NCBI RefSeq assembly: GCF_000425365.1 | Contig: NZ_AUDH01000012.1 | Span: 1 to 64,000, forward strand | Source: Rubritepida flocculans DSM 14296 | GTDB lineage: Bacteria; Pseudomonadota; Alphaproteobacteria; Acetobacterales; Acetobacteraceae | Reading direction: 5' to 3' | Length of the DNA: 64,000 nucleotides | Shown: in pieces, positions 5,483-61,032 of the stretch | Numbering within the stretch: position 1 is the first letter of the stretch | Layout: every line of letters starts with the position of its first letter | The notes under the pieces: generated by a model | Told to the model about the DNA's origin: nothing | Seen by the model: only the letters and a program-made list of their open reading frames with translations | Databases searched by the model: none | Made by a program: the position numbers and the translations under genes

Positions 5483-5539
5483 GGCGGCGCGCCACCGCAA
5501 GGCCAAGCCCCCGCCTGTTGCCGGCGGCCGCTGGCATGA
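5483..5539 (+). repeat. Degenerate 3' fragment of the intergenic repeat family
   Basis: Ends in GGCGGCCGCTGGCATGA, matching the 3' arm of the full copies at 54489 and 60423. The preceding bases (GGCGGCGCGCCA) resemble the GGCGGCTGCGCGCCA core. The 5' palindrome is missing. It occupies the divergent gap between the C39-like gene and the PBP gene. Confidence 0.5.
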
Positions 5540-8270: not shown

Positions 8271-9402
8271 ATGCGTGCCGACGCCCTTTCGCTGCAAGAG
8301 CAGATCACCGCCTCGGTGTCCCTGCTGAGGAGGCATCTTTGACTGGGATGCCTCGACCGCCCGCCTCGCCGAGCTGAACGCCAGGGCCGAGGATCCGAAC
8401 CTCTGGAACAACCCCGATGAGGCGCAGCGCGTGATGCGCGAGCGCACCCGCCTCGCCGACCAGATCGAGGGGGTGCGCAAGCTCGAACAGGCGGTGCGGG
8501 ACGCGCTCGAGCTCATCGAGCTCGCCGAGGCCGAGGACGACACGGCCACCGCCGACGCCGCGGTCGCCGACCTGCAGCGCCTCGCCGCCGAGGCCAAGCG
8601 CCGCGAGATCGAGAGCCTGCTCTCCGGCGAGGCGGATGCGAACGACGCCTATGTGGAAGTGAACGCCGGCGCCGGCGGCACCGAGGCGCAGGACTGGGCG
8701 GAGATGCTGCTGCGCATGTACATGCGCTGGGCCGAGGCGCACGGCTACAAGGTGACGCTGACCGAGCAGAGCGACGGCGAGCAGGCGGGCATCAAATCCG
8801 CCACCATCCAGGTCTCCGGCCCCAACGCCTATGGCTGGCTCAAGACCGAGAGCGGCGTGCACCGCCTGGTGCGCATCTCGCCCTTCGACGCGGCGGCGCG
8901 GCGGCAAACGAGCTTCGCCTCGGTCTATGTCTATCCGGTGATCGACGACAAGATCGAGATCGAGATCAACCCGGCCGACCTCAAGGTGGACACTTTCCGC
9001 GCCTCCGGCGCCGGCGGGCAGCACGTGAACAAGACCGAGTCCGGGGTGCGCTTCACCCATATCCCGACCGGGATCGTGGCCGCCAGCACGCAGGACCGCT
9101 CGCAGCACCGCAACCGCGAGATCGCGCTGCGCATGCTCAAGGCCCGGCTCTACGAGCTCGAGCTGCAGAAGCGCGAGGCGGTGGCGGCGGCGACCGAGGC
9201 GGGCAAGACCGACATCGGCTGGGGCCACCAGATTCGCAGCTATGTGCTGCAGCCCTATCAGCTCGTGAAGGATCTCCGCACCGGCGTGGAGAAGGGCAAC
9301 CCGGCCGCGGTGCTGGACGGCGATCTCGACGAGTTCATGGCCGCGGCGCTGGCCGCGCGCGTGGGCGCCACGCGCAGCGAGGCGAGCGCGGCGGCGCGAT
9401 GA
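8271..9402 (+). CDS. prfB: Peptide chain release factor 2, programmed +1 frameshift
   Basis: Recognises UAA/UGA and triggers peptide release. The coding sequence is joined 8271-8339 and 8341-9402: the first 23 codons end at TGA (8340-8342), and a +1 shift on CTTTGAC continues into the main frame, giving 376 residues, normal for RF2. The stop-recognition motif SPF occurs in RISPFD, and the peptidyl-transferase motif GGQ in [17 protein letters not shown] gene lies 9 bp upstream. The TGA stop is also the first base of a repeat element. Confidence 0.96.
8328..8343 (+). promoter_or_regulatory. prfB autoregulatory frameshift site
   Basis: Internal Shine-Dalgarno AGGAGG (8328-8333), a 3-nt spacer CAT, slippery CTT, in-frame TGA and a following C. 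Geometry matches the Escherichia coli prfB site. Low RF2 favours the shift, so RF2 controls its own synthesis (established for the family). Confidence 0.95.
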
Positions 9403-9527
9403 TAGGGCTGGCGGTCACGCCGGACGGATCGCGCATGCCGGGTTGGCGGGCGGCGGCGCGCCGAAGCGAGGGCATGCCAGCGGCCGCGCCGTCTTCTCAG
9501 GGTTCGAATCAGCGGTCGCTGGCATGA
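9402..9527 (+). repeat. Intergenic repeat, short form (126 bp)
   Basis: Begins on the A of the prfB TGA. It has a diverged 5' palindrome (GGCGGTCACGCCGGACGGAT), core GCCGGGTTGGCGGGCGG, then terminal inverted arms CATGCCAGCGGCCGC and GCGGTCGCTGGCATG. It lacks the 25-nt hairpin of the long form. The right end supplies the ATG used here as start of the downstream phosphatase gene. Confidence 0.85.
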
Positions 9528-11482: not shown

Positions 11483-11660
11483 TTGTCATACGCCGTAACC
11501 TGTCGGGAGCGCGGCTCGCCCGGGAGGGGGCTGCCGCGGCGACCGTCCGGGATGGCCGAAGCGGGGCGATGAAGGACACCCGCGGGCGAGAGAGACAGAC
11601 AAGGCAACGAGGGTGTTCGGCGCCGCGCGGCGGGGCCGTTGGGGAATGGGGGACAGGCGA

Positions 11661-12152
11661 ATGGGCTTCTCGATGCGCGCGATCATGGCGGGGCTGCTCG
11701 GGCTCGGGCTGGCGGCGGCGGCGCCCGCGACGGCGGATGCCCGAAGCGAGGCGCGCCCCACCGCGCAATCCCAGCGCGCCACCGCGCCGGGCGCGCAGAT
11801 GACGCGGCGCGGGGCCGCCCGGCCCGCCGCCCAGGCGCGCCGCCCGGCCTCCGCCGGCCAGCCGCGCGCCCAGGGGCAGGCGGCGCGCTCCGCCTCGGCC
11901 GTGCCCTATGCGACCGCCCGCGGCGGCGCGAACCCCGCCGCGTCAGGCGGCCAGCGCGTGGCGCAAAGCGCCATGGCCCATTGCGTGGTGCGCAACGGCC
12001 GCCGCGTCTGCGGCGCCCAGCCGCGCAACACGGCCTTCCGCTGGACCGGCGGCCTCGCGCCCGCCGCGATGAGCCAGACCTCCTGCCCCGACGGCACCAT
12101 CGCGACCACCGCCATCGGGCACAGCAACGTCGTGCGCTGCATGCCGCTCTGA
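11661..12152 (+). CDS. Exported Ala/Arg-rich protein with four cysteines
   Basis: A 163-residue protein of no recognised family. It has a signal peptide (hydrophobic [15 protein letters not shown], probable cleavage after ADA) and a low-complexity Ala/Arg/Pro/Gln stretch to about residue 95. The compact C-terminal part has four cysteines (C108, C117, C142, C160) that could form two disulfides in the periplasm. An upstream ATG at 11613 would add a charged leader, so I chose the start that directly precedes the signal sequence. The stop codon is the first base of a degenerate repeat copy. Confidence 0.65.
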
Positions 12153-12198
12153 TCCCGGCGGCGGCGACGCCGGGCGTCTCGCAGGGTCTCCGACGGGC
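12152..12198 (+). repeat. Truncated, degenerate 5' part of the intergenic repeat
   Basis: Starting on the A of the TGA stop, the sequence reads TCCCGGCGGCGGCGACGCCG followed by GGCGTCTCGCAGGG and GACGGGC. This aligns with the 5' palindrome and AGGGTTGACGGGC core of the copy at 60423. Nothing of the 3' half is visible. It could alternatively be an unrelated GC-rich hairpin. Confidence 0.45.
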
Positions 12199-20309: not shown

Positions 20310-20472
20310 TCAAACCGGCGGATGCTGGCGCTGATCGCCGGCGCTGCGGCGCAGCCGCCGGCATGGCCTCGTTTCGGCGCGCAGCCGCCACGCCGGGTCC
20401 CATCGAAGCAAAGCTTCGATGGGTGCCCGTCAACCCTGCGCGCGATACGTCCGGCGTGGCCGCCGTCCATAT
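20310..20472 (-). repeat. Intergenic repeat, long form (163 bp), minus orientation
   Basis: Begins on the A of the M20 peptidase TGA stop. The order is 5' palindrome (GGCGGCCACGCCGGACGTAT), CGCGCAGGGTTGACGGGC core, the 25-nt hairpin CCCATCGAAGC-TTT-GCTTCGATGGG (perfect), GGCGGCTGCGCGCC, and diverged 3' arms ending TTTGA. Same layout and nearly the same length as the copies at 54489 and 60423. Confidence 0.85.
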
Positions 20473-21602
20473 CACACGCTCTGCAGCAACCCCGCGAAGA
20501 GCTTCCCGCGCGAGGCCAGCGAGCTCACCTGCACATGCTCCTCCAGCGTGTGCGCCATGGCGCCCTGGATGCCCAGCCCGTCGAGGGTGGGGATACCCAT
20601 GGCCCCGGTGAAGTTCCCGTCCGAGCCGCCGCCCGAGGACTGGTGCGGCAGCGCGAAACCCAGCCGCTTCGCCAGCGCCTCGGCGGTGGCGTGCAGCGCC
20701 AGCACCTTCTCGTCCGGCTCCCAGACGGGGCGCGTCACGCCGCGCGTCACCGTGAGCTGCACGTCGTTGCCGCTCGGCCGCAGGGCGAGCATCCGCGCCA
20801 CCCCGGCGTCCAGATCCGCCTGGCGCTTGGCCATGGAGAGCACCTCGGCGTCGCAATGCGTCGCCACGCAGTTCACCCATTGCCCGGCGTGGACGACGCC
20901 GACGGAGAAGGTGCAGTCCTCCGTCGTCATCTCCTCGATGGCGAGGATCTGCTTCGCCATCTCGCGGATGGCGCTGCGCCCCTCCGCGAGCCGCGCGCCC
21001 GCGTGGCTCGGCCGGCCCGTCGTGCGCAGGTTGAAGCGCGCGATGGCGTAGCGGCCCGTCACCACGCCGCCATCGGGCCGCGCGGGCTCGGGCACGAGCA
21101 CCACGGCATGCCGCGCCGCTTCGGCCTCGATGAGATCGCGCGTCGAGGGGCTGCCCACCTCCTCGTCGCTGGTCAGCAGCACGGTGACGGGCCGCGAGGT
21201 CGGGATGCCCGCCCTGATGAGCTGGCCGATCGCCTCGACGGCGAGGTAGGTGCCCCCCTTCATGTCCTGGATGCCCGGGCCGTAGGCGATGTCGCCCTCG
21301 CGCCGGAAGGGCAGGCCCTTCGCCAGCGTGCCGACGGGGTGCACCGTGTCGAGATGCGCGAGCACGAGGATGCCCTTCTCGCGGCTCTCGTGCGGGAAGC
21401 GCGCGCGCACGCAGTCGCCGAAGCCCATGCGGCCGGGGATGGTCTCGACCGTCGCGCCCATCAGCGCCAGGTGGCGCGCGGCCAGCGCCATCATGCGGTT
21501 CACCGCCGCGGCGTCGTGCGTGGGGCTCTCGCACTCCACCCAGGTCCGCAGGCCGGCGAGCATCTCCTCGGCGTCGAAGGGCAGGTCGAGCTTGGCTTCC
21601 AT
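20472..21602 (-). CDS. M20 family metallopeptidase (carboxypeptidase G2-like)
   Basis: Cytoplasmic zinc peptidase/amidohydrolase of 376 residues. Metal and catalytic positions are visible: H83 and D85 in LAHLDTVHP, D113 in IQDMKGG, the Glu pair in SDEEVGSP (147-148), E172 in PEPARPDG, and a C-terminal His in AMAHTLEEH. The GGGSDGNFTGAMGIPTLDGLG segment is typical of glutamate carboxypeptidases. A second, related M20 gene lies at 22367. The start is divergent from the racemase-like gene, 27 bp away. Substrate unknown. Confidence 0.9.
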   Translation of the reverse strand: MEAKLDLPFDAEEMLAGLRTWVECESPTHDAAAVNRMMALAARHLALMGATVETIPGRMGFGDCVRARFPHESREKGILVLAHLDTVHPVGTLAKGLPFRREGDIAYGPGIQDMKGGTYLAVEAIGQLIRAGIPTSRPVTVLLTSDEEVGSPSTRDLIEAEAARHAVVLVPEPARPDGGVVTGRYAIARFNLRTTGRPSHAGARLAEGRSAIREMAKQILAIEEMTTEDCTFSVGVVHAGQWVNCVATHCDAEVLSMAKRQADLDAGVARMLALRPSGNDVQLTVTRGVTRPVWEPDEKVLALHATAEALAKRLGFALPHQSSGGGSDGNFTGAMGIPTLDGLGIQGAMAHTLEEHVQVSSLASRGKLFAGLLQSV

Positions 21603-21629
21603 CGGGGTTCCCTCTTTGATGCGGGAACC

Positions 21630-22370
21630 ATGCGCCTGCTCGTCGCCAACGCCAACACCACCGAGGCCATCACGCAGCTCTGCGCCGAGGCCGCGCGCGC
21701 GGCCGCCGCACCCGGCACGCGGATCATCCCCGCCACGCCGCGCTTCGGGCCGGAGGTGATCGCCACCCGCGCGGAGAACGTCATCGCGGGCCATGCGCTG
21801 CTCTCGCTGCTCGCCGAGCATGCGGGGCAGGTGGAGGCCTGCCTCCTGGCGGTGAGCCACGACACGGCGCTGGAGGCCGCGCGCCAGCTCATGCCCTGCC
21901 CCGTGGTGGGCATGACGGAGGCCGCCTGCTTCGCGGCCTGCCTGGTGGGCGCGCGCTTCGGCCTCGTCACCTTCGGCGGCGTCGAGACCTACCGCGAGCG
22001 CATCGCGCAGCACGGACTCGCCGGGCGCTGCGCCGCGCTGGTGGGCGTGGACGCGACGCCGCAGGAGGCGGTGCGCGACCCGGAGGGCGTGGCGCGCAAG
22101 GTGCAGGCGGGAATCGCCCGCGCCGTGGCCGAGGGCGCGGATGCGGTGGTGATGGGCGGCGCGGCGCTGGCCGGCATGGCGCCGCGGCTGCAGGGCGAGG
22201 CGGCGGTGCCGCTGCTCGACGGCATCGCCGCCGGGGTGAAGCTCTGCGAGATGCTGGTGGCGCTCAATCTGCCGAGGCCGCGCGCGGGCAGCCTCGCCCC
22301 GCCCCAGGGCCGCGCGAGCCTCGGGCTCGACCCCGCGCTGGCGGCGCTGCTCAAGGGAGGAACGCCGTGA
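21630..22370 (+). CDS. Asp/Glu/hydantoin racemase-family protein lacking catalytic cysteines
   Basis: A 246-residue protein with the two-lobed cofactor-independent racemase fold (N terminus MRLLVANANTTE, later PVVGMTEAA and PLLDGIAAGVKL). In hydantoin/Asp racemases the proton shuttles are cysteines in an ACF-type and an LGCAG-type motif. Here the aligned positions are V75 (LLAVSHDT) and G177 (VVMGGAAL), so racemization by the usual route looks impossible. It overlaps the next M20 gene by 4 bp (GTGA), suggesting joint function in amino-acid or N-acyl amino-acid breakdown. Confidence 0.8.
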   Translation: MRLLVANANTTEAITQLCAEAARAAAAPGTRIIPATPRFGPEVIATRAENVIAGHALLSLLAEHAGQVEACLLAVSHDTALEAARQLMPCPVVGMTEAACFAACLVGARFGLVTFGGVETYRERIAQHGLAGRCAALVGVDATPQEAVRDPEGVARKVQAGIARAVAEGADAVVMGGAALAGMAPRLQGEAAVPLLDGIAAGVKLCEMLVALNLPRPRAGSLAPPQGRASLGLDPALAALLKGGTP

Positions 22371-36863: not shown

Positions 36864-37743
36864 ACCCGTTTTCGGCCGCCTCGCGCTCATCGGCGCGGGG
36901 CTGATCGCGGGCTCCATCGCCCGGCGCAACCGCGAGCAGGGCGGGCTCGCGCGCGAGGTGGTGGTGACCGCCCGCACGCCCGAGACGCGCGCGCGCGTGC
37001 GCGAGCTCGGCTTCGCCGACCATGTGGCCGAGGATCCGGCCGAGGCGGTGCAGGGCGCGGACGGCGTGATCCTCTGCGTGCCCGTGGGCGCCTGCCGGTC
37101 GGTGATGGAGCGCATCGCGCCGCACCTCGCGCCGGGCACGCTGCTCTCCGATGTCGGCTCCACCAAGGGCTCGGTGATCCGCGACGTCGCGCCGCTGCTG
37201 CCGCCGGGCGTGGTCTTCGTGCCCGCCCACCCCATGGCGGGCACCGAGCACACCGGGCCCGATTCCGGCTTCGCCAGCCTCTTCGAGGGGCGCTACACCA
37301 TCCTCACCCCGCTCGAGGGCACGCCGCCCGAGGCGATCGAGCGGGTGCGCGAATTCTGGCGCCGCTGCGGCTCCATGATCGAGACGATGGACGCCACGAC
37401 GCACGACAAGGTGGTGGCCATCGTCTCGCACCTGCCGCACCTGATCGCCTTCACCATCTGCGGCACGGCGGACGATCTGAGCGAGGAGACGCGCGAGAGC
37501 GTGCTGAAATTCGCCGCTTCCGGCTTTCGCGACTTCACGCGCATCGCCGCCAGCGACGTGGCGATGTGGCGCGACGTCTTCCTCAACAACCGCGAGGCGG
37601 TGCTGGAGATGCTGGCCCGCTTCACCGAGGACGCGCAGGCCTTCGGCCGCGCCATCCGCTGGGGCCAGGAGGAGTTCATCGTGGACCGCATCGCGCGCGG
37701 CCGGAAGATCCGGCGCGGGCTGATCGAGCGCAAGCAGGCCTGA
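36853..37743 (+). CDS. tyrA: Prephenate/arogenate dehydrogenase
   Basis: NAD(P)-dependent oxidative decarboxylation leading to tyrosine. The 296 residues contain the dinucleotide motif GAGLIAGS (14-21), the catalytic serine region SDVGSTKG, and the active-site His of [12 protein letters not shown]. It starts inside the 3' end of hisC. The downstream neighbour is convergent, so it is probably the last gene of a three-gene operon. Confidence 0.94.
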
Positions 37744-37772
37744 GCGCGGACGAGGGGCGGCGAGGCCGCGCG

Positions 37773-39584
37773 CTACCCTTCCAGCTCCTCGCGCAGCATC
37801 TCGAGGCGCAGCCACTCCTCCTCCGCCTCGGCGAGTTTCGCCTCGCGCTCGGCCAGCGCCGCGCTCTTCGCGGCGAAGCCCTTGGGATCGCGCGCGTAGA
37901 GTTCGGGGTCAGACAGCCAGCGGCGCAGCACGGCGATCTCCTGCCCGAGGCGCTCCATGGCGGCGGGCAGCGTCTCCAGCGCGTGCCGCTCCTTGAAGCC
38001 GAGCTTGCGCGCGGGGGCGGCGCGCGGAGCCTCGGCGGGCCGCGCGGGCGCGGGAGCGGGAGCGGACGGGGGGCGCGGCGGCGCCGTCACGCCTGCGCCT
38101 CGCTGCGCCAGCATGTCCGTGTAGCCGCCGGCGTATTCCTGCCAGCGCCCCTCGCCCTCGCTCATGACCACGCTGGTGCAGACGCGGTCGAGGAAGTCGC
38201 GGTCATGGCTCACCACCAGCACCGTGCCGGCATAGTCGGCCAGCATCTCCTCGAGCAGGTCGAGCGTCTCGAGGTCGAGGTCGTTGGTCGGTTCGTCCAG
38301 CACCAGCAGGTTGGAGGGCGCGGCCAGCGCGCGCGCCAGCATCAGCCGCCCGCGCTCGCCGCCCGAAAGCCGGCCCACCGGCGTGCGCGCCTGCTCCGGC
38401 GCGAACAGGAAATCCTGCATGTAGCCGATGACGTGGCGCGGCCGGCCGCCCACCCAGACCTGGTCGCCGCGGCCTTCCGTCAGCGTCTCCGCCAGCGTGG
38501 CCGCGGGGTCGAGCGTGGCGCGCATCTGGTCGAGGCTCGCCATGGCGAGGTTCGCACCCAGCCGCACGCTGCCGGAATCCGGGGCGAGCGCGCCCGTCAG
38601 CAGCTTGAGCAGCGTGGTCTTGCCCGCGCCGTTGCGGCCGACGATCCCCACCCGGTCGCCCTTGAGGATGCGGGTGGAGAAGCCGCGCACCACCGCCCGC
38701 CCGCCCCAGGATTTCGTCACCGCCTCGGCGGCGATGACGAGGCTGCCGCCGCGCTCGGCCTCCGCCGCCTCCAGCTTCACCTGGCCCTGCGGCTTCACCC
38801 GGGCGCGCCGGGCCGCGCGCAGCGCCTCGAGCTCCGCCACGCGGCGCATGTTGCGCTTGCGCCGCGCGCTGACGCCATGGCGCAGCCAGTGTTCCTCGCG
38901 CGCGATCTGCCGGCCGAGCTTGTGCGCCTCGCGCTCCTCCTCGGCCAGGAGGCGCTCGCGCCACTCCTCGAAGGCGGCGAAGCCCTGCTCCAGCCGCCGC
39001 GTCGCGCCGCGGTCGAGCCAGAGCGTGGCGCGCGAGAGGCGTTCGAGGAAGCGCCGGTCATGGCTGATCATCACCAGCGCGCCGCGGAAGGCCGCAAGCT
39101 CCGCCTCCAGCCACTCGATGGCCGGAAGGTCGATGTGGTTGGTGGGCTCGTCCAGCAGCAGGATGTCCGGCTGCGGGGCCAGCGCCGCGGCCAGCGCCGC
39201 GCGCCGCGCCTCGCCGCCCGAGAGGCGCGCGGGGGCCTCCTCGCCCGTCAGGCCGAGCTGCTCCAGCAGCCAGCGCGCGCGGTGCGGGTCGTCCGCGGGG
39301 CCGAGCCCGGCCTGCACCGCATCCCACACCCGCGCATGGGCCGAGAGGTCGGGCTCCTGCGGCAGGGTGCGCAGCGTCGCGCCGGGCTGAAGGAAGCGCG
39401 TGCCGCCCTCGGGCTCCAGCTCGCCCGCGGCGATGCGCAGCAGGGTGGACTTGCCGCTGCCGTTGCGCCCCACGAGGGCGAGCCGCTCGCCGGGCGAGAC
39501 CTGCAGCGCCGCGCCCGCGAGCAGCGGCGCGTTGCCGAGGGTGAAGCGGATGTCCTCCAGGATCAGCAGGGGCGGCGCGGGCAT
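37773..39584 (-). CDS. uup: ABC-F family ATPase (Uup-like)
   Basis: Soluble duplicated ABC ATPase acting on ribosomes or DNA rather than transport. The 603 residues comprise a first ABC domain with GRNGSGKS (39-46), LSGGEARR and LLDEPTNHID; an interdomain linker rich in Arg; a second ABC domain with GRNGAGKT, LSGGERGR and LLVLDEPTNDLD; and a C-terminal Pro/Ala linker plus coiled coil (KLAEAEEEWLRLEMLREEL) typical of Uup. No membrane domain. Convergent with tyrA (29 bp). Confidence 0.92.
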   Translation of the reverse strand: MPAPPLLILEDIRFTLGNAPLLAGAALQVSPGERLALVGRNGSGKSTLLRIAAGELEPEGGTRFLQPGATLRTLPQEPDLSAHARVWDAVQAGLGPADDPHRARWLLEQLGLTGEEAPARLSGGEARRAALAAALAPQPDILLLDEPTNHIDLPAIEWLEAELAAFRGALVMISHDRRFLERLSRATLWLDRGATRRLEQGFAAFEEWRERLLAEEEREAHKLGRQIAREEHWLRHGVSARRKRNMRRVAELEALRAARRARVKPQGQVKLEAAEAERGGSLVIAAEAVTKSWGGRAVVRGFSTRILKGDRVGIVGRNGAGKTTLLKLLTGALAPDSGSVRLGANLAMASLDQMRATLDPAATLAETLTEGRGDQVWVGGRPRHVIGYMQDFLFAPEQARTPVGRLSGGERGRLMLARALAAPSNLLVLDEPTNDLDLETLDLLEEMLADYAGTVLVVSHDRDFLDRVCTSVVMSEGEGRWQEYAGGYTDMLAQRGAGVTAPPRPPSAPAPAPARPAEAPRAAPARKLGFKERHALETLPAAMERLGQEIAVLRRWLSDPELYARDPKGFAAKSAALAEREAKLAEAEEEWLRLEMLREELEG

Positions 39585-39674
39585 GGCGCGCGCATGGGCC
39601 GCGCCGCGCGCCGGGTCAAGGCTGGACAGGCGCGCCCCGCCCGCCTTCGATGCGCCGGGCAGGAGGAACGATCC

Positions 39675-40412
39675 ATGTTCGACTTCACCGGCAAGCGCGT
39701 CGTGGTCTGCGGCGGCTCCAAGGGCATCGGGCGCAGCGCCGCGCTCGGCTTCGCGAAGGCAGGCGCCGCCGTCTCCATCTGCGCGCGCGGCGCCGAGGCG
39801 CTGGCCGCCACCCGGGCCGAGCTCGGCCCCCAGGGCCATGCCGCGCCCTGCGACCTCGGCGACGCCGCGCAGATCGCGCGCTACATCGCCGAGGCCGAGG
39901 CGGCGCTCGGCGGCATCGACGTGCTGGTGAACAACGCCTCCGGCTTCGGCATGGCCGACACCGAGGAGGGCTGGGCCGCCAGCCTGAACGTGGACGTGCT
40001 CGCCACCACGCGCGCGAGCCGCGCGGCGCTGCCGGCGCTGAAGGCCGCGCGGGGCTGCATCGTGAACATCAGCTCCATCTCCGGCTATCGGCCTTCCGTG
40101 CGCGGGCCGGCCTATGCGGCGGTGAAGGCGCTGCTGATCAACTACACGCAGAGCCAGGCCGCGACGCTGGCGCCCGATGGCGTGCGGGTGAACGGCGTGG
40201 CGCCCGGCTCCATCGAGTTCCCCGGCGGCGTGTGGGAGCAGCGCCGCGACAGCCACCCGGAGCTGTATCGACGCACCCTCGCCTCCATCCCCTTCGGCCG
40301 CTTCGGCACGCCGGAGGAGGTGGCGAACGTGATCCTCTTCCTCGCCTCGCCGCTCGCGGGCTGGATCACCGGCCACACGGTGGTGGTGGATGGCGGGCAG
40401 ATGCTGAGCTGA
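39675..40412 (+). CDS. Short-chain dehydrogenase/reductase
   Basis: A 245-residue classical SDR with the cofactor motif GGSKGIG (13-19), NNAS (86-89), catalytic Ser in NISSISGY, Y147 and K151 (YAAVK), and the C-terminal GHTVVVDGG. The AGGAGG Shine-Dalgarno lies 9 nt before the ATG at 39675. Substrate unknown; the family covers many alcohols, sugars and acyl compounds. The stop TGA coincides with the start of a truncated repeat element. Confidence 0.9.
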   Translation: MFDFTGKRVVVCGGSKGIGRSAALGFAKAGAAVSICARGAEALAATRAELGPQGHAAPCDLGDAAQIARYIAEAEAALGGIDVLVNNASGFGMADTEEGWAASLNVDVLATTRASRAALPALKAARGCIVNISSISGYRPSVRGPAYAAVKALLINYTQSQAATLAPDGVRVNGVAPGSIEFPGGVWEQRRDSHPELYRRTLASIPFGRFGTPEEVANVILFLASPLAGWITGHTVVVDGGQMLS

Positions 40413-40464
40413 TGCGGGCGGCGGTCACGCCGGCCGTATCGGGCACGCCGGGTTGGCGGGCGGC
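40412..40464 (+). repeat. Truncated intergenic repeat, 5' part
   Basis: Starts on the A of the SDR stop TGA. It has the palindromic GGGCGGCGGTCACGCCGGCC, then GTATCGGGCACGCCGGGTTGGCGGGCGGC, and ends exactly where the stop codon of the convergent transglycosylase begins (TCA at 40465). The 3' arms are missing. Confidence 0.75.
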
Positions 40465-40893
40465 TCAGCGCGGCGGCGGCGCGGCGGGCGGCGTGTCGGG
40501 GAAGAGCTGGCGCGCCGCCTCGGTGATGCGGCCCAGATAGGCCTCGTGCCGGGCGGGGGTGCGCGAGTGGTAGTCGCCCACCGCCGCCACCACGTCGCCG
40601 CGCCGGCGGTCCAGCTTGTGGCGGAAGATCGCCCCCGCGGCGGCGATGTTGTAGCAGGCGTCGTGGATCAGCCGGTGGCGCACCACCGCCACGCTCTCGC
40701 CCGTGTAGGCGGCCAGCGCCGGGATCCAGCGCGTGTTCACCTGCATCACGCCGAGATCCTCCGAGCCGTCCCGGTTGCGGCTGACGCTGCCCACCTGCCC
40801 GCCCTCGACGCGCTGAATGGCCGGCAGCACCCGCGGCGGGATGCCGTAGAGGTTCGCCACCAGCGTCATGCAGGCGAGGTAGGGGATGCTCAT
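40465..40893 (-). CDS. Small lytic transglycosylase-like protein
   Basis: A 142-residue SLT-domain protein. Catalytic Glu E30 is in AIQRVEGG and the supporting motif DLGVMQVNTRW is at 46-56; a Cys in DACYNIAAAG follows. No signal peptide is evident, since the SLT fold starts within the first ten residues, so export is unclear. VirB1-type enzymes are similar, but no secretion system is nearby. It may belong to the end of the Tol-Pal transcript (70 bp after cpoB). Confidence 0.75.
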   Translation of the reverse strand: MSIPYLACMTLVANLYGIPPRVLPAIQRVEGGQVGSVSRNRDGSEDLGVMQVNTRWIPALAAYTGESVAVVRHRLIHDACYNIAAAGAIFRHKLDRRRGDVVAAVGDYHSRTPARHEAYLGRITEAARQLFPDTPPAAPPPR

Positions 40894-52977: not shown

Positions 52978-54489
52978 ATGCTCGACACGCCCCACCCCAC
53001 CCCCGCCGGCGTCACCCTCGACGAGCGGAAACTCGCCGCCGCCCTCTCCGGGCTGCACTTCATCGGCGGGCGCTACGTTCCCGCCCTCTCGGGCAAGACC
53101 TTCGAGGTCGTGAACCCCGCCACCGGCGAGCCCGTGGCCAAGGCCGCCGAGGGCGACGCCGCCGATGTGGACGCCGCGGTGCGCGACGCCGCGCGCGCCC
53201 AGAAGGAATGGGCGAAGATGCCCGCGCGCAAGCGCGGCGCGCTGGTGCATCAATGCGCCGCCCTGCTGAAGGAGCACCAGGAGGAGCTCGCGCGCCTCAT
53301 CGCGCTCGAGACCGGCAAGGCGCTGCGCACGGAAAGCCGCGTCGAGGCGGGCGTGGTGGCCGACATCTTCGAGTTCTACGGCGGCCTCGGGAGCGAGCTG
53401 AAGGGCGAGAGCGTGCCCTTCGCGCCAAACGTGCTCAGCGTCACGGTGCGCGAGCCGCTCGGCGTGGTCGGCGCCATCATCCCCTGGAACGTGCCGATGC
53501 TGCTGATGGCGCTGAAGGTCGCGCCGGCGCTGGTGGCGGGGAATACGGTGGTGGTGAAGTCGGCCGAGGAGGCGCCGCTCGCCGTGCTGCGCATCTGCGA
53601 GCTGATGAACCGCGTGCTGCCGCCGGGCTGCTTCAACATGCTCTCGGGCTTCGGCCCCGAGTGCGGCGCGCCGCTGGTGGCGCACCCCCTGGTGCGCAAG
53701 GTGACCTTCACGGGTTCCGTCGAGACGGGGAAGATCGTGGCCAAGGCGGCGGCCGAGAAGCTCGTGCCGGTGACGCTCGAGCTCGGCGGCAAATCGCCCA
53801 TGATCGTCTTCGCCGACTGCGACTTCGCCAAGACGGTGCAGGGCGCGCTGACCTCGATGCGCTTCACGCGCCAGGGCCAGTCCTGCACCGCGGCCTCGCG
53901 CATCTATGTCGAGCGGCCGATCTTCGACCGCTTCGTGGCCGAGATGAAGAAGGCCGTGGACGCGATGGTGATGGGCGACCCGCTGGACGAGAAGACGGAC
54001 ATCGGCACCATCATCTCGCCCGGCCAGTTCGAGAAGGTGCAGGCCTATATCGAGGAAGGAAAGCGCACGCCGGGCGCGGTCGCGCACGAGTGCAGCGCCC
54101 TGCCGAAGGATCCCGCGCTGAAGAAGGGCCTCTTCCTGCGCCCCGTGATCTTCACCGGGCTGACCAAGGAGAGCCGGCTGGTGCGGGAGGAAATCTTCGG
54201 CCCCGTCACCGTCATCCAGCCCTTCGACGACGCCGAGTCGGTGCTGGCCGAGGCGAACGACAGCGACTACGGCCTCGCCGCCAGCCTCTGGACGAACAAC
54301 CTGAAGGTGGCGCTCGACCTCGCGCACCGGCTGGAGGCGGGGCTGGTGCAGGTCAACCAGAACCTCGTGGTGCAGGCGAATCTCAGCTACGGCGGCGTGA
54401 AGTCGAGCGGGCTCGGCAAGGAGGCCTCGCTGGAGGCGATGCTCGAGCACTTCACCCACAAGAAGACCATCATGGTGAACATGGGCTGA
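52978..54489 (+). CDS. Aldehyde dehydrogenase family protein
   Basis: NAD(P)-dependent aldehyde oxidation, 503 residues. Nucleophile C303 in GQSCTAASR, general base E268 in LELGGKSP, the cofactor site PWNVPMLLM and FTGSVETGK. GGAGGA is placed 9 nt upstream of the ATG at 52978. Could process an aldehyde made from whatever the Bug receptor brings in; the substrate is unknown. Its TGA stop is the first base of a full-length repeat element. Confidence 0.94.
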   Translation: MLDTPHPTPAGVTLDERKLAAALSGLHFIGGRYVPALSGKTFEVVNPATGEPVAKAAEGDAADVDAAVRDAARAQKEWAKMPARKRGALVHQCAALLKEHQEELARLIALETGKALRTESRVEAGVVADIFEFYGGLGSELKGESVPFAPNVLSVTVREPLGVVGAIIPWNVPMLLMALKVAPALVAGNTVVVKSAEEAPLAVLRICELMNRVLPPGCFNMLSGFGPECGAPLVAHPLVRKVTFTGSVETGKIVAKAAAEKLVPVTLELGGKSPMIVFADCDFAKTVQGALTSMRFTRQGQSCTAASRIYVERPIFDRFVAEMKKAVDAMVMGDPLDEKTDIGTIISPGQFEKVQAYIEEGKRTPGAVAHECSALPKDPALKKGLFLRPVIFTGLTKESRLVREEIFGPVTVIQPFDDAESVLAEANDSDYGLAASLWTNNLKVALDLAHRLEAGLVQVNQNLVVQANLSYGGVKSSGLGKEASLEAMLEHFTHKKTIMVNMG

Positions 54490-54652
54490 TACGGTCGGCA
54501 TGACATGCCGACCGTATCGCGCGCAGGGTTGACGGGCGCCCATCGAAGCTTTGCTTCGATGGGACCCGGTGTGGCGGCTGCGCGCCAAAACAAGGTCATG
54601 CCAGCGGCCGCACCGCCTCCGCAGGAGTCGCAATCAGCGGCCGCTGGTATGA
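54489..54652 (+). repeat. Intergenic repeat, long form (164 bp), best-preserved copy
   Basis: Starts on the A of the aldehyde dehydrogenase TGA. Hairpin 1: ATACGGTCGGCAT / ATGCCGACCGTAT (54489-54517, 13-bp stem, perfect). Core CGCGCAGGGTTGACGGGC. Hairpin 2: CCCATCGAAGC-TTT-GCTTCGATGGG (54539-54563, perfect). Then GGCGGCTGCGCGCC. Terminal arms CATGCCAGCGGCCGC (54597-54611) and GCGGCCGCTGGTATG (54637-54651), followed by A. Confidence 0.95.
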
Positions 54653-54671
54653 GCGGGCGGGAGCGCGCGGA

Positions 54672-54704
54672 GCGTAATACGGGCGGCGTGACCGCCGCCC
54701 GCCT
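54672..54704 (-). repeat. Truncated intergenic repeat at the btuB-type gene stop
   Basis: On the minus strand, starting on the A of the receptor's TGA stop, the sequence GGCGGGCGGCGGTCACGCCG continues CCCGTATTACGC. It matches the 5' palindrome of the copy at 40412. The hairpin GGGCGGCG/CGCCGCCC (54681-54700) could also end transcription of the receptor gene. Confidence 0.65.
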
Positions 54705-56647
54705 CAGAACGCGAATCGCGTCCCTGCCAGCACCGTCCGCCCCGGGATCTGGAAGCCGTTGACCGGCTCGAAGGCGCTGTCCGTCAGGTTGCGCGCCTCG
54801 AGGAAGGCCGTGACCTCGGGCGTGATCCGGTAGCTCGCCGCGAGGTTCAGGATGGTGCCGCTCTTGTTCCGCCGCGGCGCGGAGACGCTCGCGCCGCTGT
54901 TGAGATAGGTGGCGAAGGGCCCTTCCTGGCTGCGGCCGGTGAACTGGAGCTGCGGCGTGATCACCAGTCGCTCGATGGGCGTGATGCGCGCCGAGAGGCT
55001 CACCACATGCTCGGGCCGGCGCGGCAGCGGGCGCTGGGTGCGCGCGTCCACCGCGCTCGTCAGGGTCCAGGCCGCCTCGGCCGTCAGCCAGGGGAAGGGG
55101 CGCAGCGCCGCCACCAGCTCCGCGCCATGGATGTTCGCGCGGTCCACGTTCACCAGCGTGCTGAACTGCGCGTTGAAGGCGATGAGATCGCGCACGCGCG
55201 ACTGGAAGAAGGTCCAGCCCAGCGTCGCGAAGTCGGGCCGGCCGAAGGCGGGCAGGTCCATCTCCGCGCCGAACTCGTAGCCGAGGCTGCGCTCGGGCCG
55301 CAGGTTCGGGTTGCCGATGAAGGTGGTGCCCGTCCGGCCGAAGCGCTGGAACAGCGAGGGCGCGTTGAAGCCCGAGCCGCCCGCGGCGCGCAGCCGCAGG
55401 TGGAACTCCGGCACGTGATAGACGAAGCCCACCCGCCAGGTCGTCTCGCCCTCGAAGCCGCCCACATGGTCGTGCCGCAGCCCGGCCGTGAGGTCGAGCC
55501 GCTCCCACAGCCGGTATTGCACGGCGAGGTGCCCGGCCGTCGTGTCCTGCTTGGCGTTCACGCGGGTCTGGAAGGGGGCGCTGCCGTAGAGGCTGCGCGC
55601 CTCCTCCTGACTCCAGTTCGCGCCGAAGCTGAGCGCCCCCTGCCGCGCGGCGCCGAGATCGGGCAGGCGCACCACATTGCCCCAGTCGAGCGTCAGCCGC
55701 TCGCCCCGGTAGAGGTCGCGCGTGGTGGCGCGGCTGAGCAGATCGGGCAGGTTGGAATAGGCGCGGCGGTCCTGGGTGTAGGCGAGGCGCAGCCCCGTGG
55801 TCCAGGCGCCGTCGAACAGCCGCGTCTCGGCGCGCGCCTGGCCGAACCAGCGCCGGTCGTCGCCCGTGTAGTTGGGGTCGTCGCGCGGCACGCTGTCCAG
55901 GCCGAAGCGGTTCTGCCGGTAGCGGAACAGCCCCTCGATGCGCGTGCCCTCGATGGGCGTGAAGCCGAGCCGCGCCGTGGCCGCGCTGGCGGAGACGCCA
56001 TCGCGCTCGCGCAGCGTGTTCACGAAGCGCTCGGCGGTGGCGTTGCTGCCGCGGGTGGAGAGGTTGTTCACGCTGGCCAGGTAGTCGAAGCGCCCGAGCG
56101 TGCCCGCGGCGCCCAGGCCGCCGCGGAAGGTGGCGTTGGAGCCGCCGGCCGCCTCGCCATAGGGCGCGAAGGCGCGGTCCGCCGGCGCGCGGCGGGTGAC
56201 GAGGTTGACCACGCCCCCCAGCGCCGCCGCCCCGTAGAGCGAGGAGGCCGGGCCGCGCAGCACCTCGATGCGCTCGATGTCGAAGAGCAGGTCATTGCCG
56301 AAGTTGAACTCGTTGTTCGGCGCGGAGGGGTCGTTCAGCGGCACGCCATCCAGCAGCACCAGTGTGGAGCGGCTGGAATTGCCGCGCAGGAACACCGACG
56401 TCTGCTGCCCGAAGCCGCCATTGGGCGCGATGCGCAGCCCGGGCACGGCGGCCAGCGCCTCGGCCAGCGTGGCGTAGCCGCGCTCCTCGATCTGCTGACG
56501 GGTGATGACGGTGATGGCGGCGGGCACGCGCTCGAGCGGCGTGGGCACGCGGGTGGCGGTGACGATGGTGTCCGGGATCGCGGTCTGCGCGAATCCGGGC
56601 GTGATGGCGGCGAGCATGGCCGCGGTGGAGAGCAGGAGCCTGCGCAT
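54704..56647 (-). CDS. btuB: TonB-dependent cobalamin receptor (BtuB-like)
   Basis: Outer-membrane receptor of 647 residues. Signal peptide (cleavage after GFA), TonB-box region (PDTIVTATRVPTPLE), plug domain (RGNSSRSTLVLLDGVPLND, IERIEVLRGPASSLYGAAALGGVVN) and a C-terminal beta-barrel ending in aromatic residues (TRFAF). A cobalamin riboswitch directly upstream identifies vitamin B12 or a corrinoid as the likely ligand. No other B12 transport or synthesis genes are present in this window. Confidence 0.93.
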   Translation of the reverse strand: MRRLLLSTAAMLAAITPGFAQTAIPDTIVTATRVPTPLERVPAAITVITRQQIEERGYATLAEALAAVPGLRIAPNGGFGQQTSVFLRGNSSRSTLVLLDGVPLNDPSAPNNEFNFGNDLLFDIERIEVLRGPASSLYGAAALGGVVNLVTRRAPADRAFAPYGEAAGGSNATFRGGLGAAGTLGRFDYLASVNNLSTRGSNATAERFVNTLRERDGVSASAATARLGFTPIEGTRIEGLFRYRQNRFGLDSVPRDDPNYTGDDRRWFGQARAETRLFDGAWTTGLRLAYTQDRRAYSNLPDLLSRATTRDLYRGERLTLDWGNVVRLPDLGAARQGALSFGANWSQEEARSLYGSAPFQTRVNAKQDTTAGHLAVQYRLWERLDLTAGLRHDHVGGFEGETTWRVGFVYHVPEFHLRLRAAGGSGFNAPSLFQRFGRTGTTFIGNPNLRPERSLGYEFGAEMDLPAFGRPDFATLGWTFFQSRVRDLIAFNAQFSTLVNVDRANIHGAELVAALRPFPWLTAEAAWTLTSAVDARTQRPLPRRPEHVVSLSARITPIERLVITPQLQFTGRSQEGPFATYLNSGASVSAPRRNKSGTILNLAASYRITPEVTAFLEARNLTDSAFEPVNGFQIPGRTVLAGTRFAF

Positions 56648-56782
56648 GGGTTCCCCCTGGCTGCGCGTGACGACATGCCGCGCAAAGCGAGGGCCCCGCG
56701 CGACGGCTGGCGTCGAGCCCGCAAACGGAACAGGGTTCCGTGGCGCCGGTGCACCCCGCCCGGCACGCGCGAGAACAACTCT

Positions 56783-56964
56783 GCGCCGGCCGGTCTCCTG
56801 GCTCGCGGGTCACCGCCTCGGCCCGCCTTCTCGCCCCCCCGGCAGGGAGCAATGGCAGATGGGGCCGAGGCTCTCCGCCTACAGTTGCGGGGGCAGCCGC
56901 GGATTGAGGGAGGGGGCCTCCCCGTCGCGCGTTCCCGTTTCACCCCTCATCGGGGCACCGGCGC
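56783..56964 (-). promoter_or_regulatory. Cobalamin riboswitch
   Basis: On the minus strand: closing stem GCGCCGG (5') with CCGGCGC (3'), GATGAGGGGTGAAACGGGAA, the core GCTGCCCCCGCAACTGTAGG with CGGAGAGCC, then GGCGGGCCGAGGCGGTGACC and GCGAGCCAGGAGACCGGCC. These are the conserved B12-element blocks in their usual order. It lies 135 bp before the receptor start and would repress it when adenosylcobalamin is bound. It fills most of the 367-bp gap between the receptor and exoD. Confidence 0.95.
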
Positions 56965-57014
56965 ATGGCCGCAGTGTTAACGCGGCCCGGGGCGGGGGCG
57001 GAAGGGGGGGAAAG

Positions 57015-60413: not shown

Positions 60414-60422
60414 GCGGTCATC

Positions 60423-60586
60423 ATACGGGCGGCGTGAGACGCCGGCCGTATCGCGCGCAGGGTTGACGGGCACCCATCGACGCTTTGCTTCGATGGGACC
60501 CGGCGTGGCGGCTGCGCGCCAAGACAAAGGCATCCCAGCGGCCGCACCGGCGCCTCAGGAGTGGAAATCAGCGGCCGCTGCTATGA
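60423..60586 (+). repeat. Intergenic repeat, long form (164 bp)
   Basis: Same layout and length as the copy at 54489. Hairpin 1 ATACGGGCGGCGT/ACGCCGGCCGTAT (one mismatch), core CGCGCAGGGTTGACGGGC, hairpin 2 CCCATCGACGC-TTT-GCTTCGATGGG (one mismatch), GGCGGCTGCGCGCC, terminal arms CATCCCAGCGGCCGC and GCGGCCGCTGCTATG. It starts 10 bp after the FlaG-like gene and runs straight into the next copy. Confidence 0.93.
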
Positions 60587-60712
60587 TACGGCCGGCGGCT
60601 ACGCCGGACGTATCTCGCACGCCGGGTTGATGGGCGGCGGCGTGCCAAAACAAAGACATGCCAGCGGCCGCGCCGCAGCTTCAGCGGTCAAAGCAAGCGG
60701 CCGCTGGTATGA
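60586..60712 (+). repeat. Intergenic repeat, short form (127 bp), tandem with the preceding copy
   Basis: Shares base A60586 with the end of the previous copy (TATGATACGG). 5' palindrome CGGCCGGCGGCTACGCCGGACG, core CACGCCGGGTTGATGGGC, no hairpin 2, then CCAAAACAAAGACATG and terminal arms CATGCCAGCGGCCGC and GCGGCCGCTGGTATG. The spacer between the arms (GCCGCAGCTTCAGCGG then TCAAAGCAA) differs from that in other copies. Confidence 0.92.
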
Positions 60713-60742: not shown

Positions 60743-60965
60743 ATGATGCGGGCGGCCGGATATCCCCACGCATCGGCGGCGTGCGCGGCCTGGGCGATCT
60801 CCCGGCGCGAGTTTCCCGAGAACATCGCGCCGCGCGGCGGAGATCGGCCGAGGCGCATTCTCGGACATTTCTCCGGCGACCTGGGGCCTCCCAGGGCCCG
60901 GGGGCCGCAAACACCAGCGGCCGGGCCGCCTCATCCGCCGTCAAACACGGCATCCGCTGGCATGA
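60743..60965 (+). repeat. Degenerate intergenic repeat upstream of cydD
   Basis: Only the ends are recognisable: TGATGCGGGCGGCCGG-ATATC around 60752 like a 5' end, and CCAGCGGCCG (60913-60922) with CATCCGCTGGCATGA (60951-60965) like the terminal arms. The stretch between is not alignable by eye. With the two copies before it, this explains most of the 619 bp between the FlaG-like gene and cydD; no gene is seen there. Confidence 0.45.
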
Positions 60966-61032
60966 CTCCCCAACCCGCCCCACAATCGCCACGGCGGCGA
61001 TGCGCCGCCCGAGCCGGGAGTGCTTCGCCCCC

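Follow-up and report, generated by a model that had tools for sequence, protein, structure and literature searches.

Introduction

IS200/IS605 derivatives (PATE) and HEARO/IscB have hairpin ends and insert beside a fixed short target, and MIRUs insert into DTGA overlaps. According to one report, start codons with a -4 nt coupling appear to be the places where MIRUs insert (PMC12548453). Bacterial MITEs (Correia/NEMIS, RUP, Chunjie, YPAL/RU-2) are described as non-autonomous, mostly below 200 bp, without a protein and with target duplication, and YPAL/RU-2 as having internal inverted repeats (PMC2229807, PMC10969869).

The repeat analysed here came from a 64-kb stretch of DNA, the whole of which is called the window, and is an element of bacteria related to the acetic acid bacteria. 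Like MIRUs, it is a short mobile intergenic unit at gene junctions that keeps its neighbours usable; it differs in having three hairpins, in using the stop and not the start codon as its common address and in belonging to another phylum. Likened by description, the element would seem to work like the MIRU strategy; identity with MIRU is not claimed. With MITEs it shares the lack of coding, the small size, the many copies and a target duplication (3-bp TNA), and with YPAL/RU-2 the internal inverted repeats, but no parent IS was found among the PF01609 genes read, no long terminal inverted repeat was seen by eye, the TNA lies mostly at stop codons and the arms are free to differ between genera. 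REP/BIME/REPIN sequences are likewise intergenic palindromes in high copy number, whereas the present unit is larger, has a conserved core with a GG-rich loop, duplicates its target and has no RAYT in its genome; in place of two short inverted GTAG-tagged palindromes we saw by eye TNA-TAC..GTA-TNA ends with no GTAG foot. Hairpin ends and an adjoining fixed short target recall PATE and HEARO/IscB, but the 3' triplet here follows the target and no Y1 enzyme is present in the genome. The kind, a small non-autonomous intergenic mobile repeat, is already known; the family, its TNA/stop-codon address and the build of conserved core and free arms appear to be new. We consider it probable, at about 0.78, that this is a non-autonomous, MITE-like element that inserts in MIRU-like fashion at stop and start codons with its enzyme supplied in trans.

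Results

Copies and remnants at gene ends

A sequence-only reading of the window had listed five full copies, and all five proved to be real, with 5' ends that lie 2 nt further out and take in a TGA (TCA at 60421); that the ends of the element are stop codons had been overlooked. The unit is made of three hairpins, namely HP1, a core stem with a GG-rich loop that may hold a fourth hairpin, and HP3, and is represented in the window as follows.

54487..54652, plus strand: full copy of the 166-nt class; the gene upstream has its stop codon in the 5' TGA (54487-54489); HP1 spans 54488-54518, the core stem pairs 54519-54526 with 54578-54585, the inner hairpin spans 54539-54563, HP3 pairs 54597-54611 with 54637-54651, and the 3' TGA is at 54650-54652
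60421..60586, plus strand: full copy of the 166-nt class; 5' triplet TCA, 10 nt past the stop of the upstream gene
60584..60712, plus strand: full copy of the 129-nt class, sub-family B (core stem GCACGCC/GGCGTGC)
9400..9527, plus strand: full copy, 128 nt, within an ATGA stop/start overlap; the site is empty in the sister genome G013
20310..20474, minus strand: full copy of 165 nt; gene 20472-22013 (minus) has its stop codon in the 5' TGA
40410..40478, plus strand: partial copy (HP1 and the 5' half of the core) at a TGA; 80% identical over 69 nt
12150..12198, plus strand: HP1-like palindrome, seen by eye only, where ORF 11613-12152 has its stop codon
54669..54706, minus strand: apparently solo HP1-like palindrome where gene 54704-56647 (minus) has its stop codon
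5511..5539, plus strand: 3'-end remnant with GGCCGCTGGCATGA, seen by eye only
60914..60968, plus strand: decayed 3' part (HP3); 76% identical over 55 nt

The copies at 60421 and 60584 stand in tandem and have one TGA, the 3' triplet of the first, in common. At 9400 gene 8431-9402 terminates at the TGA of the copy, and the gene that follows begins at the 3' ATGA. ORF 37566-40412 (plus) ends at the partial copy at 40410, but the real gene there is more likely to be the minus-strand ORF 37773-40376. The partial copies proposed earlier fared unevenly: that at 40412 held, that at 60743-60965 was supported as a decayed 3' part, and that at 54672-54704 falls in a weak minus-strand match of 38 bits (54596-54706) to the covariance model R1 described below, a match that in part is antisense to the HP3 next to it. 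For those at 12152-12198 and 5483-5539 the evidence is visual, the remnants at 12150 and 5511 being absent from the window matches of R1 at E<=0.01. A cobalamin riboswitch (56771-56977, minus strand, 101 bits) lies just upstream of gene 54704-56647 (minus), which we take to encode a TonB-type receptor.

Copy number and anatomy

With the 54487 copy as query, a BLAST search of the genome returned 66 rows: 43 were copies or parts of them, and the other 23 were short stretches that the HP1 palindrome matched in antisense. The covariance model R1, built from 29 copies of this genome, gave at least 137 matches at E<=1e-3, a lower bound, and 151 at E<=10, some of the weakest being antisense matches of palindromes; the high genome-wide copy number that had been expected from the window, and the further copies to be looked for with such a model, were thus found. 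From about 150 R1 matches 114 copies were extracted, after removal of matches scoring below 65 bits, of a copy truncated at the end of a contig and of some tandem neighbours whose shared TGA makes them overlap. Together they amount to 16,421 bases, or 0.43% of the genome, and 18 of them continue into another TACGG- or TGCGG-type unit with a common 3' triplet. Several contigs (C6, C15, C24, C19, C44) begin or end in or near copies of the element.

The consensus of the 114 copies is TGA-TACGGNCGGC..GCCGNCCGTATC (HP1), followed by a core hairpin with the stem GCGCGCAG / CTGCGCGC and the loop GGTTGGYGTGGCGG (in order GCGCGCAG-GGTTGGYGTGGCGG-CTGCGCGC), a short AAAACAAAGG-type linker and HP3, CATACCAGCGGCCGC..GCGGCCGCTGGTATGA. 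HP1 and HP3 are near-perfect hairpins, and inside the end triplets the element begins TAC.. and ends ..GTA. Most of the 61 copies of 126-137 nt have an intact core loop, whereas most of the 48 copies of 154-168 nt carry a hairpin of about 25 nt, within a 37-nt insert, in that loop; four copies of 96 nt have lost the HP3 loop and one copy measures 198 nt. The module order and the optional inner hairpin of the sequence-only reading were borne out on these copies, but its 15-bp terminal inverted repeat turned out to be a 15-bp hairpin within the 3' third (HP3), which does not join the two ends of the element. The ends themselves share only a short inverted repeat, the TAC..GTA tips with a weak further match by eye (for example TACGGTCGGC / TACCAGCGGC, and TACCAACC in G187, a genome of another genus), which counts against the preferred reading.

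Two copies of this genome and two of other genera were folded as single-strand DNA, and the minimum-energy fold showed the three hairpins in all four (z -7.0 to -11.2); for L121 the centroid was without the core stem, which also counts against that reading. In the 29-copy alignment 97.9% of pair cells were paired and seven pairs had changed two-sidedly, against a shuffled mean of 1.7 and a number reached in 0/500 shuffles. For the core stem there were eight two-sided cells (shuffled mean 1.1, none of 500 shuffles as high), but only two of its pairs vary two-sidedly, a count that 101/500 shuffles reached and that speaks against the preferred reading. The core loop has four GG runs and may resemble the thrombin-binding quadruplex aptamer.

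Empty sites and duplication of the target

The sister genome G013, in which the genes flanking the 9400 site are 93% and 90% identical, has a bare ATGA overlap where this genome has ATGA-element-ATGA. The junction is a bare ATGA overlap in G007 too; the other relatives with a readable junction have other spacers, and by eye this element was present in none of them. The joined flanks of 14 further copies were searched, and for eight (L008, L024, L057, L109, L141, L147, L149, L157) G013 matched across the joint with one TGA and with flanks 86-94% identical, with small alignment gaps near the joint at L024, L149 and L157. This brings the single-TGA empty sites in a relative to nine, and the element, which had been described as a dispersed, structured, non-coding repeat family, has indeed moved. 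Among the remaining sites L003 is filled in G013 as well (element L073), L118 and L119 look empty there but carry a second decayed unit here, and the matches at L095, L097 and L130 were partial, split and of no use respectively. No empty site in G013 was obtained for the window copies at 54487 and 60421, because gene order changes between the two genomes right at these sites; since it does so, copies of the element may promote rearrangement.

A 3' triplet fixed in the element would be independent of the target. Here it was observed to follow the target, and the 3-bp TNA target is thus duplicated. The two end triplets were equal in 97/114 copies (shuffled mean 86.1). Five of the equal pairs were not TGA (TAA three times, TCA and CGA), against 0.25 expected (p about 5e-5, the smallest value that the test can give), the weakest of the five being the TCA pair, whose copy has a decayed 3' end. 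In G187, where TAA is the commonest target, the two triplets agreed in nine of 11 clean copies (six with TAA, two with TGA and one with TCA), where 4.6 would be expected (p 0.003). These 11 pairs were taken from 25 loci, with the dimer L364/L372 counted as one and the 3' end of L379 read from the flank; truncated copies were not counted, nor were the copy beside an IS and one whose 3' end is degenerate. Counting against duplication, the triplets were unequal in 17/114 copies here (3' TGG five, TGC three) and in 2/11 in G187, and 15 complete elements from named genomes had a 3' TGG three times and one CGA/TGA pair; the evidence for it also comes from few non-TGA cases, TGA being dominant, which likewise weighs against it.

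The target address

The 5' triplet was TGA in 102/114 copies and the 3' triplet in 96/114. By a simple frame caller 111 copies could be scored, three of the 114 being left out for too short an upstream sequence, and in 72 of them the 5' triplet was the stop codon of the gene upstream on the same strand. Among other TGAs of the same loci 259/4348 on the same strand, 234/4210 on the other strand and 34/352 within 200 bp were stops. Enrichment at stop codons seems, with rough gene calls, to exceed what mere avoidance of genes would give, since only 39 (22%) of the 178 window TGAs that are stops or lie outside called genes are stop codons, as against the 72/111 copies. That any stop codon serves as a target is disfavoured: TAG was the 5' triplet in 0/114 copies, although it ends 9/52 crudely called genes of the window, and because it is missing the address seems to be the sequence TNA and not a translation stop as such. 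At the other end, the ATG of the 3' ..TATGA was in frame with the next gene in 15/114 copies, so that insertion at stop/start overlaps of co-oriented genes, as with MIRUs, is seen both here and at the 9400 site.

A second repeat of 112 nt (ACAGAAACTGACAC ... CGCCGGTGGGTAAC) was noticed at L029:1387-1498 and, on the minus strand, at L022 1667-1778, and in both places follows a TAG directly. It directly precedes the TGA of 9/114 element copies, and the same 3' end was seen at L004, L012, L013, L094, L102, L122 and L139.

Distribution in relatives

Within the genus R1 matched 6/21 genomes, with at least 137 matches here, 11 in G013, five in G010 and one in each of three others. These counts, high here and low in the relatives, together with the empty sites suggest a recent burst in this genome, though R1, made from its copies, would miss diverged ones. 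The exact 28-nt core was found in 51 stretches of named genomes, among them Paracraurococcus, Roseicella, Elioraea, Plastoroseomonas, Siccirubricoccus, Acidiphilium, Acidocella and other genera. Four genera were looked up, and all belong to the order Acetobacterales (NCBI families Roseomonadaceae, Elioraeaceae and Acidocellaceae); the 'family' of our genome searches is probably wider than these NCBI families. The complete copies in these 51 stretches keep the ends TGATAC..GTATC and CATACC..GGTATGA and the core, with point changes, and their arms are unrelated in sequence yet paired; in other stretches the core sits in other outer frames. A family-wide alignment of the whole element misplaced the HP3 arms, and no model was taken from it.

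The core model R2 at E<=1e-5, with the best 28 matches at most per genome, was found in 72/200 genomes of the family and 42/91 genera. In a sample of the class it matched 6/387 genomes, this one and five of other families; the sample held five other genomes of the own family and none of these matched. In the stretches read from other families the core stands without HP1 and HP3, which counts against the preferred reading of the element; since it stands alone there the core may be an independent module. Further stem swaps with a kept loop were seen outside the family. One 129-nt copy found no match in plasmid and phage collections.

Several arrangements of the core were noted in passing. At L190, L197, L198, L199, L202, L224 and L228 it lies in another frame (GGGGTGGCCGCTGG..CCAGCGG core ..CCACCCCGGACCCCGCC and variants), which at L190, L197, L202 and L228 is upstream of what by eye seems the same short-chain dehydrogenase gene. 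Core hairpins, some of them diverged, stand in tandem with no outer hairpins between at L191 (four, near 1039-1180), L211 (two) and L236 (two). In other families the core stem is longer with a tail like GGAAAAGACTGG (L392, L398, L402, L404, L406, L408, L410 in G540 and L393 in G259), and G540 has 13 core matches. In G187, HP1 occurs alone, with no core or HP3, at L386 and L388, and L347 holds a dimeric element of two cores with one common HP3-like joint, a form as expected from recombination between repeated GGTTGGTAT tips.

Search for a helper enzyme

No helper was found in a search that covered Y1_Tnp and PF01609. A RAYT/TnpA-like transposase had been suggested, but Y1_Tnp (PF01797; RAYT, IS200/IS605) gave no match in this genome, which is 99% complete; the control matched 5/14 known genomes. 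It was found in 22/200 genomes of the family, and 10 of these 22 were among the 72 core carriers against 7.9 expected, a comparison that assumes that both searches drew the same 200 genomes; 62/72 core carriers were without it. Its absence here and the lack of association across the 200 genomes speak against a RAYT as the helper.

In G187 an IS200/IS605-type gene (NF033573, 137 bits) adjoins a copy, with its Y1 domain about 95 bp from the core. An autonomous copy was rejected: the copy there is a complete 153-nt element (97% over 1-153), and the transposase model covers residues 6-127 of an open frame (L334:2351-2980) before the element, through which the frame then runs. Since it is complete and behind the transposase domain, this copy looks like an element that went into the end of an IS gene. 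PF01609 had 15 matches in this genome; the two open IS5-type genes read (contigs C53 and C31) have other ends (GTTTGAGAA; GAGACC) and were set aside as a parent IS. A broken transposase gene on C2 has a degenerate copy next to it that was taken for an old insertion. Longer, gene-carrying copies were sought around three isolated 3' ends, with no 5'-end pattern in 6 kb around each.

The name of the family

The repeat had been called apparently unnamed, and the searches agree. Against Rfam the window had no repeat family at gathering score, only the riboswitch and tRNAs, and nine loci gave a tRNA and three matches below gathering scores, of which two were to miRNA models. None of the open-access papers searched contained any of four 15-mers of the core, and no description of the element was among the matches listed in the open-access literature.

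Discussion

We propose that this is a non-autonomous element (classes of about 96, 129 and 166 nt here, end triplets included) that would be moved by a trans-acting enzyme. The enzyme would act on the hairpin ends and insert the element at TNA, here nearly always TGA, with a cut presumably staggered by 3 bp. A hit on a stop codon would duplicate the target and leave the upstream stop intact, and because the stop codon is duplicated, the upstream gene would be left nearly unaffected by the insertion. Where the target is an ATGA overlap, both stop and start would be restored, as is observed at 9400. The pile-up at co-oriented stops could arise from an asymmetric TNA target together with the loss of those insertions that fall within genes, and a further preference may add to it. 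Because the arms differ completely between genera yet stay paired, the enzyme may read folded single strands.

Another explanation is single-strand transposition of the IS200/IS605 (PATE-like) type, in which the element would insert 3' of a TGA without duplicating it and the 3' (A)TGA would be its own right-end cleavage site. It would give the same filled and empty sites, the hairpin ends and the oriented short target fit it, and a transposase of this type does adjoin a copy in G187. We nevertheless judge it unlikely: the 3' triplet tracks the target triplet where a fixed right end would not, Y1_Tnp is absent here and without association in 200 genomes, and the G187 copy is complete and lies behind the transposase domain. 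The same lack of a Y1/RAYT gene and of any association bears on a REPIN-like repeat moved by a RAYT transposase. Such a repeat would also be intergenic, palindromic and of high copy number, and some REPs lie near stop codons, as stated in PMC12306157. However, according to PMC3733652, REPs are palindromes of 20-40 bp, mostly tagged with GTAG or CGTC, and CGTC repeats are missing in Acetobacteraceae, whereas the unit here is 96-168 nt (once 198) with a core; we give this origin almost no credence.

A role selected in cis would be of a different nature, with the repeat as a non-mobile 3'-UTR RNA (terminator, mRNA stabiliser or translation brake) spread by recombination. The copies are most frequent at stops, co-oriented with the genes and strongly folded, and REPs close after stop codons lower translation according to PMC12306157. 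This seems very improbable given that 8/14 tested sites were cleanly empty in a relative with 86-94% identical flanks, that the target is duplicated and that 18/114 copies continue into another unit with a common 3' triplet. By analogy, an element that has landed may still act as a cis RNA that lowers translation behind the stop, REPs within 15 nt of a stop codon being reported to reduce translation (PMC12306157).

If the non-autonomous element does move by a trans-acting enzyme in the manner proposed, duplication of the stop codon on which it lands would be a clean way to spread in gene-dense genomes. A conserved core with changing but paired arms offers a natural experiment on structure-based DNA recognition, and the large copy-number differences among related species make the missing enzyme findable. 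A more tentative proposal, and one that we regard as doubtful when all its parts are taken jointly, is a wide class of structure-addressed mobile DNA. The enzyme would be of a kind new to small repeats, the hairpins would be recognised by their shape, the TAC/GTA tips and the GG-rich core loop with the arms free, TNA would be duplicated at stops, and the core would perhaps be an older Alphaproteobacterial module in several mobile frames. Were this true, it would represent a near-harmless way of populating operons.

In two copies, L153 and L072, the core-loop hairpin has wholly different arms that are largely paired still. Because the inserted hairpin can differ in this way, the core loop seems to be a site where hairpins repeatedly land or are exchanged.
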